64,000 nucleotides of DNA from Dissulfurirhabdus thermomarina (GTDB lineage Bacteria; Desulfobacterota; Dissulfuribacteria; Dissulfuribacterales; Dissulfurirhabdaceae): positions 439,001 through 503,000 of the forward strand of contig NZ_JAATWC010000001.1 of assembly GCF_012979235.1 (NCBI RefSeq), written 5' to 3'. A program made the position numbers and the translations under genes. Below are positions 13,250-15,789 of the stretch, piece by piece. Numbering within the stretch: position 1 is the stretch's first letter; every line of letters begins with the position of its first letter. Under the pieces are notes generated by a model. It was not told where the DNA came from. It made no database searches and saw only the letters and a program-made list of their open reading frames with translations.

Positions 13250-13993
13250 TCAGGCGGGACGGTTTCCGGGGTCGAGCCCCGAGAGGATGGCCTGGTGGAG
13301 CTCCCGTGTCAGGGCGTCCTTGCCCTTCGGGCCGCCGGGCCCCACGGGGTCCACGGGAGGCAGGAGGCGGACGCGGATCCGCCCGGGGCGGACCAGGATG
13401 CTCCCCCTGGGCAGGCACCGGTGGCTCCCGCTGATGGCGACGGGCAGGACCGGCGTTCCGGCCTTCCGGGCGAGCAGGACGCCGCCGGGCTTGAAGGGCC
13501 GGAGCCGGCCGTCCGGGCTCCGCGTCCCCTCCGGGAAGATGAGCACGGCCACCCCGGATCGGACCACCTCCGCCGCCCGGTTGAGGCTTTCCACCGCGGA
13601 GCGGCCGCCGGAGCGGTCGATGGGGATGTAACCCGTAAAGCGCATGGCCGGGCCGAGGAGCGGGAGGTGAAAGAGCTCTTTCTTGGCCACGAAGCGGAAC
13701 TGGATGGGGAGGGCCACGAAGAGGGCGAGGATGTCGAGCTGGCTGGCGTGGTTGGCCGCGATGACGAGTCCGCCGGGCAGGCCGGCGAGGTGTTCCCGGC
13801 CCGTCACCTCCACCTCGACCCCGGCCGCGGCGAGCAGCCACCGGGACCAGCGCCGGCCCAGCCGGTGGGCGGCGTCGCCGGACCGGGTGACCAGCGACAT
13901 AGCGATGGCCACGGGCGCCAGAACCGCCGTGAGCGAGAGGAACCAGGGGATGAAGAGGAGCCCCCGGGTGATGTGCCGGATGCGTTGCCACAT
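13250..13993 (-). CDS. 1-acyl-sn-glycerol-3-phosphate acyltransferase (PlsC-like)
   Basis: A 247-aa membrane-bound acyltransferase for phosphatidic acid synthesis. An N-terminal membrane helix (about 10-35) is followed by the PlsC domain with the catalytic NHASQLD (HX4D) near residue 85, the FVAKKELF block, and the glycerol-phosphate-binding FPEGTRS near residue 152. The ATG at 13993 has a GAGAAGGG site and gives the usual length. It is the first gene of a two-gene minus unit with the TauE/SafE gene. Acyl donor specificity is not readable. Confidence 0.92.
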   Translation of the reverse strand: MWQRIRHITRGLLFIPWFLSLTAVLAPVAIAMSLVTRSGDAAHRLGRRWSRWLLAAAGVEVEVTGREHLAGLPGGLVIAANHASQLDILALFVALPIQFRFVAKKELFHLPLLGPAMRFTGYIPIDRSGGRSAVESLNRAAEVVRSGVAVLIFPEGTRSPDGRLRPFKPGGVLLARKAGTPVLPVAISGSHRCLPRGSILVRPGRIRVRLLPPVDPVGPGGPKGKDALTRELHQAILSGLDPGNRPA

Positions 13994-14421
13994 GGCCCTT
14001 CTCTTAACCCGGCCCGGCAGGCGGGTCAACGCGGGGCCCCGGCCCTGGATCGTGGATCGACCTCTTCCCTCTTTCGGCAAAGGGCGGTAAAAATAATAAT
14101 TTTCAACCCAAGTCGGCCGGGACCGGCGGCGGCCCCAGGGGAGCGGGTCCCGCGAGGGCCCGGCGCGATGCGGGCGGACGCGAACGATGGCCCCGTAAAA
14201 GGCCTCCGAGTGGATGGCTCAGCAGAAAATCGCCAAATGCACGGCGCGAGGATGTCGAGGTAACGAAGTGGACTTCTGATACGCCGCAGTGACGAGCGCA
14301 CCGAGGCACCGCCGCAGTCGGCGGCTTCTCGTGCCGCCGGCATGAGTCGTCGGTTGCGCTGCGGAGGCGTCGCGGCGTACGATTTCCGCCGGCGCCACCC
14401 GAAGGAAGGAGGACGGCCCCC
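13994..14421. other. 428-bp intergenic region between divergent genes
   Basis: No convincing gene. It holds an AT-rich patch near 14090-14105 (TAAAAATAATAATTTTC) that could contain the acyltransferase promoter, a GC-rich middle part, and from about 14195 a distinct stretch whose 3' half (14280-14379) folds into a three-way junction described separately. A GGAAGGAGG ribosome site for the next gene is at 14403-14411. Short frames here have no recognisable protein. Confidence 0.6.
14280..14379. ncRNA. Structured three-way-junction element of unknown function
   Basis: A 100-nt segment with nested pairing. The outer stem is 14280-14287 with 14372-14379 (8 bp, perfect). It continues with GAC 14291-14293 to GTC 14369-14371, GCGCA 14296-14300 to TGCGC 14355-14359, and CCGA 14301-14304 to TCGG 14350-14353. 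Two closed hairpins sit inside: 14309-14314/14319-14324 (6 bp, CAGT loop) and 14328-14335/14339-14346 (8 bp with one G-T). It may be an RNA leader of the downstream 4Fe-4S gene, an independent RNA on either strand, or a dispersed palindromic DNA repeat. Only one copy is seen here. Confidence 0.45.
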
Positions 14422-15789
14422 TTGCCCCCCAAGCCCTCCCTGTTTTCGGCATTCCGGGATCCCGAGGCCCCCGTGGACCTCTTCGAGCGGTTCCCGCGCC
14501 TGCGGGAGTTCTTCCGCCGCCGCCGGCTGCATGCGGCCATGCGGACCTTCGGGGACGCCACCTTCACCTTCATCATCGTCTCGGGGCTCTTCGGGCCCCA
14601 GGAGCCGGACCGGAACGTCGCCCTCTTCCTCGCCTGGGGGGTCTGGTGGCCCTCGGTGGTCCTCAGCTGGTTCGTGTTCGGGCGAATGTGGTGCGGTTTC
14701 TGCCCGTTTCCCGGCATCGGCCGGGTGATGCAGCGGCTCGGCCTCTCCCTCGAGCGGCCCGTGCCCCGGTGGCTGCAGAAGACGGGGGTCTACTGGTCCG
14801 TGGGGCTGCTGGCGCTGATCATCTGGGTGGAGGAATCCACGGGGATGAAGCAATGGCCCCGGGGTACGGCGCTCTTGCTCTTGGCCATCCTCGGAGGGGC
14901 CACCCTCGCGGCCATGATCTACCGGAAGCAGGCCTGGTGCCGGTATCTGTGCCCCATGGGCCGGATCACCGGGGTGGCGGCCACCTTCGCCCTCACGGAG
15001 TTTCGTCCCGATCACGAAAAGTGCCGCGGTTGCAAGACCTTCGCCTGCAAGCGCGGCGCCGGCGGGGTGCCCGGGTGCCCCGTCTATCTCGGGGCCTTCA
15101 ACGTGCGGAACAACCTCCACTGCCTGGTCTGCGGCCACTGTGTCATGCTGTGCGACCGCAACTCGCCCCGGCTCAACCTGCGCAACCCCTTCAACGAGCT
15201 CATCCTCAACAAGGGGCGCTACATCACCTGTTCCTACATCATCCCCTTCCTCATGGGGTCCCAGCTGGCGCGGTTCGTCAAGATGAGCCCGGCCGTGGAG
15301 GACTGGTTCTGCAGCGGCACCATGGCGTGCCAGATGATGCTCTTCTCCGTGCTGCTCTTCGTGGGCTTCCACTACGTCTACGGGGTGATCCGGCTCGGGG
15401 CGCGGTTCTTCGGCGTGACCGAGGACGAACTCTTCGGGCGTTTTTCGCCCCTCGTCCCCATCTTCGTGCCCCTGGCCTTCGCCGGGGAGCTGTCGTACCG
15501 GCTCGACTTCGCCCTGGTCAACGCCCCGGCGTTCCTGCCCACCCTCGGCCGGCAGTTCGGGTGGGACCTCGTCGCCTGGACCTTCAGCCCCCCGCAGGAC
15601 CTGCGCCTGGCCATCGCCCTGGGGATCCTGGCGGCGGGGGGGCTGGCCGGGGTCTACATCCTGCGCCGGTTCATGACGGAGGAGTTCCAGGGGATGGTGA
15701 GCCGCCTTCGCTATGCCCTGGTCCTGGCCCTCGTGGGGATCATGCTGGCCAGCTACGTCGCCGCCGTGGCCACGGGGGTCGGGCCTTAG
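14422..15789 (+). CDS. 4Fe-4S membrane protein, NapH/polyferredoxin type
   Basis: A 455-aa integral membrane iron-sulfur protein of the NapH/YccM-like group. Six or more helices are interleaved with cysteine motifs: FGRMWCGFCPF near residue 95, WCRYLCPMG near 175, CRGCKTFACK near 205 followed by CPVYL, and CLVCGHCVMLC near 235. These could bind two 4Fe-4S clusters and carry electrons between quinol and soluble partners. The start is TTG at 14422, chosen because a GGAAGGAGG site ends 10 nt upstream and the product begins cleanly. It overlaps rluD by 4 nt tail to tail. The partner enzyme is not in the window. Confidence 0.85.
   Translation: MPPKPSLFSAFRDPEAPVDLFERFPRLREFFRRRRLHAAMRTFGDATFTFIIVSGLFGPQEPDRNVALFLAWGVWWPSVVLSWFVFGRMWCGFCPFPGIGRVMQRLGLSLERPVPRWLQKTGVYWSVGLLALIIWVEESTGMKQWPRGTALLLLAILGGATLAAMIYRKQAWCRYLCPMGRITGVAATFALTEFRPDHEKCRGCKTFACKRGAGGVPGCPVYLGAFNVRNNLHCLVCGHCVMLCDRNSPRLNLRNPFNELILNKGRYITCSYIIPFLMGSQLARFVKMSPAVEDWFCSGTMACQMMLFSVLLFVGFHYVYGVIRLGARFFGVTEDELFGRFSPLVPIFVPLAFAGELSYRLDFALVNAPAFLPTLGRQFGWDLVAWTFSPPQDLRLAIALGILAAGGLAGVYILRRFMTEEFQGMVSRLRYALVLALVGIMLASYVAAVATGVGP

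Follow-up and report, generated by a model that had tools for sequence, protein, structure and literature searches.

Short, IS-derived elements of the MITE kind are well known (reviewed in PMC10969869). MITEs of the IS1182 family have been described in an archaeon, Methanosarcina acetivorans, in which the ISMac2 MITEs are 160–169 bp long, carry inverted repeats of about 25 bp, and are assigned to an IS1182-family partner (PMC3852290). The bacterial repeat family reported here resembles the ISMac2 MITEs in size and inverted repeats, and its likely partner is related to IS1182. Compared by description, it differs in two other respects: the ISMac2 host is archaeal, and the ISMac2 direct repeats are listed as 4 or 0 bp (PMC3852290), versus at least 6 bp in the present family.

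Related bacteria also harbor similar repeats. The Chunjie MITE of Geobacter uraniireducens Rf4 (Chen et al. 2008), as described in a review, occurs in the same broad bacterial group as the present family and is likewise mostly intergenic, with terminal inverted repeats (TIRs) and direct repeats; the elements are 178–235 bp long and present in tens of copies, many of them partial (PMC10969869). Chunjie and the present repeats may share one TIR superfamily. Unnamed multicopy intergenic sequences are listed for Geobacter metallireducens and Pelobacter carbinolicus (PMC2700814, PMC3543383). According to these listings, they are short and palindromic and some have inverted-repeat ends, as in the present family, but they are entered as sequences of unknown function or as predicted regulatory elements. 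A literature search for the letters of the TIR returned no relevant paper; since most such sequences sit in supplements, this absence is weak evidence of novelty. We class the repeat as a new MITE family of a known kind.

The locus lies in the window, the whole 64,000-nucleotide stretch of Dissulfurirhabdus thermomarina DNA that was analyzed. Positions 14186–14341 are, with little room for doubt, a copy, now decayed, of a MITE (a non-autonomous transposable element). The features of the locus are as follows.

13250–13993, minus strand: 1-acylglycerol-3-phosphate O-acyltransferase (PlsC-like), the divergent upstream neighbor (TIGR00530, 118.9 bits, above cut-off)
14186–14341, plus strand: very probable MITE copy, degenerate but full-length, 156 bp, GATGG...C (model positions 2–157 of 158)
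14186–14202, plus strand: left TIR, GATGGCCCCGTAAAAGG, with the consensus GATGGCCTCGTAAAAAG (TIR motif counts in the genome)
14213–14234, plus strand: second TIR-like motif inside the element, GATGGCTCAGCAGAAAATCGCC, conserved across family members (alignment of copies; direct reading of the sequence)
14280–14379, plus strand: three-way junction of the earlier note, which runs over the right end of the MITE copy; 27 of its 37 pairs need bases 3′ of the MITE
14325–14341, minus strand: right TIR, degenerate in this copy; the family consensus is CTTTTTGCGACGCCATC on the plus strand (alignment with L002 and other copies)
14342–14421, no strand: unrelated flank between the MITE and the downstream start codon; the model match ends at 14341, and the flank contains the 3′ arm of the junction's closing stem (14372–14379)
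14422–15789, plus strand: membrane 4Fe-4S ferredoxin-type protein, weakly NapH-like, the downstream neighbor (TIGR02163, 22.1 bits, below cut-off)

Using the intergenic sequence as a query, at least 40 similar places were found in the organism's own 2.46-Mb genome. A sequence-only model built from 24 copies gave at least 140 genomic matches at E ≤ 0.01 and at least 132 at E ≤ 1e-4, counted among the 150 candidates scored and including some that are fragments of one copy. The aligned copies have sharp common ends and a length of about 145–160 bp, and many matches are bounded by positions 2 and 157 of the 158-position model. These ends are inverted repeats in which the sequence GATGGCNTCGNAAAAAG recurs on both sides. 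Allowing up to two mismatches, the TIR motif occurs 152 times in the genome versus 7 times for the reversed pattern. The fold of one intact copy, L007, spans nearly the whole element (z = −6.19; none of 200 shuffles folded as well).

The flanks of the copies bear the mark of transposition. With element boundaries set as GATGG...CCATC, 20 of 54 elements from the genome and its relatives are flanked by an exact 6-bp duplication, about 0.01 (54/4096) being expected. Similarly, 6–8 identical flanking bases were observed at 8 of 27 copies, taken from among the best in the genome, versus 1 of 702 mismatched flank pairs. Judged by eye, the insertion target tends to ANNNNT. The best 30 copies in the genome are all intergenic, according to the heuristic gene calls of a simple codon-usage caller. 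Elsewhere in the genome, a half element (about model positions 73–157) directly adjoins a full copy at G000:C1:679000-679252, C5:81729-81958, C4:68494-68732, C1:304492-304717, and C9:81488-81718, an arrangement that suggests a longer composite subfamily.

The window copy, itself one of the 24 used for the model, matches that model with 109.6 bits (E = 4.2e-33, cmsearch) and is 74–88% identical to other copies (BLAST). Its full-length hairpin has been lost (z = 0.23), and no target duplication is left: the flanks read GCGAAC and ATGAGT. The copy thus appears to be old. It is probably a decayed, inactive relic that has no specific present-day job at the locus.

The three-way junction at 14280–14379, which had drawn attention to the region in the earlier note, was accurately described as a structure. 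The perfect 8-bp closing stem (14280–14287 with 14372–14379) is present, and the nested pairs and two internal hairpins occur in the minimum-energy fold (−55.1 kcal/mol). What did not hold up was the assertion that this fold is far more ordered than chance. Its z-score is −1.69 on the plus strand and −1.88 on the minus strand, and 8 and 9 of 200 shuffles, respectively, were as stable. Moreover, 262 of 2556 100-nt windows across the 64,000-nt stretch (10%) are at least as stable, 24 of 773 windows of like GC content fold as well or better, and perfect 8-bp inverted repeats with a spacer of 60–110 number 313 in the same stretch. The distinct composition noted from about 14195 is real, corresponding to a dispersed repeat that starts at 14186 and ends at 14341. 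The interval of the three-way junction therefore takes in 62 bases from the right side of the repeat plus 38 bases of unrelated flank. Only 10 of the 37 junction pairs lie inside the MITE, and other copies form about half of these on average; all 8 closing-stem pairs and 19 others use outside bases. From 14340 to 14440, the sequence folds no better than its shuffles (z = 0.84). The three-way junction is no biological unit; it is an accidental GC-rich fold spanning the MITE border.

These data bear on whether the region encodes a cis-acting leader RNA or unrecognized riboswitch of the 4Fe-4S gene, with the junction as aptamer or switch. In favor of this, the element lies only 80 bp from the start codon, on its upstream side, and the junction fold does form. 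However, a junction that crosses the MITE border is difficult to reconcile with such a leader, as is the genomic distribution of the element. The 4Fe-4S gene has orthologs in 26 other genomes of the same order, and 24 loci in relatives that carry a homolog (51–64% identical) all lacked the element and any similar DNA within about 1.5 kb upstream. Conversely, the approximately 130 copies of the family adjoin many different genes. Searches for RNA signals pointed the same way: Rfam yielded nothing credible at gathering or relaxed thresholds (best score, 18.2 bits versus 50 needed), and no promoter-like site was found. The leader reading is already largely refuted, and we regard it as extremely improbable. 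A single minus-strand site resembled a terminator, near chance level, and a plasmid collection contained short chance matches only.

A broader RNA hypothesis is that the family comprises dispersed small RNAs or attenuators that are incidentally mobile, the RNA of the intact hairpin being useful to the host as a terminator, in mRNA stability, or as a decoy. The strong fold of intact copies is consistent with this idea, as are two-sided changes in helices 5 and 9 and the placement of copies: of the best 30, 17 have co-directional genes on either side, and several are within 50 bp of a gene end. Nevertheless, just 2 of the 30 lie between convergent genes, the remaining 11 being between divergent ones, and the window copy has lost its fold. 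The family hairpin has 82.1% of cells paired versus 81.5 in shuffles, and its covariation score of 0.103, which 52 of 500 shuffles reach, compares with 0.097 for the shuffled controls. Such near-shuffle values are as expected for a palindrome that descended from one ancestor and is decaying. The hairpin pairs of the copies show neither clear compensatory covariation nor a clear trace of selection on pairing beyond what an inherited palindrome would leave. Given this and the roughly 130 copies near many genes, a small RNA is highly unlikely, whether at this locus or as the basis of the family.

A candidate for the element that moved the MITE was identified through the TIR. In one genome, G303 (loci L099–L109), several contigs terminate 137 bases into the TIR or IS end. 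Such breaks point to a longer repeat that has collapsed, and the corresponding IS contig is absent from that assembly. When this end was used as a query in the order to which G303 belongs, complete ~1.9-kb elements bounded on each side by the same TIRs were located in genomes G458, G431, and G455. Three are full IS, L149 (1899 bp), L150 (about 1900 bp), and L153 (1867 bp), and a fourth, L151, is decayed. L153 is flanked by a 6-bp duplication, AATATT. In L149 and L150, the transposase is 579 amino acids long and contains the Pfam domains DUF772 and DDE_Tnp_1_6. Its best family is IS1182 (NF033551; E = 4e-54, residues 46–522), with a score of 184 bits against an NCBIfam cut-off of 270.

No match to this transposase was found in the D. 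thermomarina genome, in which the search for a long TIR pair gave a 620-bp candidate (C1:622838-623457) with no evident transposase. Across 60 genomes, broken or partial IS1182-related transposase genes were present in only three, which are relatives of D. thermomarina (G027:C44, G030:C162, and G046:C59). Because the ends are shared and the duplication length is equal, the IS1182-related transposase of the ~1.9-kb IS is the likely mobilizer of the MITE, as judged from sequence. IS1272 is a member of the IS1182 family. At 1934 bp with 16-bp inverted repeats, it resembles the partner IS, but it replaces target inverted repeats without a target duplication (PMC5678879), whereas the present IS and MITEs carry duplications.

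The same results speak against a palindrome of the REP or BIME type that a RAYT (Y1) transposase had mobilized. Intergenic, palindromic, and present in many copies, the family superficially fits that class; however, its unit of about 150 bp has two TIRs and target duplications of at least 6 bp, and the same ends bound a DDE transposase gene. Judged from these features, the probability of a REP-type origin is close to nil. As for the MITE reading, the family comprises many dispersed, gene-free copies with fixed ends, TIRs, and target duplications, and an IS with the same ends exists in other genomes of the phylum. We infer that an IS1182-related DDE transposase, once present in the lineage or supplied to it, would have bound the MITE ends in trans and moved a copy into the divergent intergenic region between the acyltransferase and 4Fe-4S genes, the insertion duplicating the target site. 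Later mutation would have removed the right end, the central hairpin, and the target duplication of the window copy. Among the interpretations in the earlier note, a palindromic mobile repeat is thus the one that stood, with strong support from copy number, fixed ends, target-site duplications, and the occurrence of the same ends on an IS elsewhere; those invoking a leader RNA or a small RNA did not.

The TIR extends far beyond D. thermomarina. Of 395 genomes from the phylum Desulfobacterota, 114 carry it, spread over 73 of the 246 genera; a single genome has as many as 274 exact matches, and the reversed pattern gave 2 matches in total. When named genomes were scanned for paired TIRs, the records listed were almost only from Desulfobacterota (Desulfobacterales, Desulfuromonadales, Syntrophaceae, and others). 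Single records among those listed were labeled Nitrospirae and Neomarinimicrobiota, and these may be binning errors. The interiors of the MITEs vary between genomes and also inside the D. thermomarina genome, where L017 (G000:C9:42586-42824) represents another type of MITE. L017 shares the TIRs, has an unrelated, AT-rich interior, and sits within the left portion of a first-type copy. It is an evenly balanced question in our judgment whether GATGNNNTCGNAAAAAG is a single TIR that defines a phylum-wide MITE superfamily with many interiors, all moved by a deep, distinct branch of IS1182-related transposases that duplicates about 6 bp at ANNNNT targets, and constituting an unrecognized major class of Desulfobacterota repeats.

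Two further observations concern the arrangement and carriers of the TIR. In genome G159, three loci (L049, L068, and L075) contain tandem MITE pairs whose members are 6–7 bp apart, as though the second element had entered the duplication made by the first or a site next to it. In addition, 20 IMG/VR viral contigs (L079–L098) contain one exact TIR each.

The common TIR provides a simple search key for these elements, and the IS found through it is a candidate source of transposase. Repeats of this MITE and IS type break assemblies, as illustrated by the IS contig missing from one genome, and can mislead covariance-based searches for RNAs. Finally, the analysis removes a false RNA candidate and puts a testable statement in its place: structured-looking intergenic DNA in such genomes can be MITE copies.
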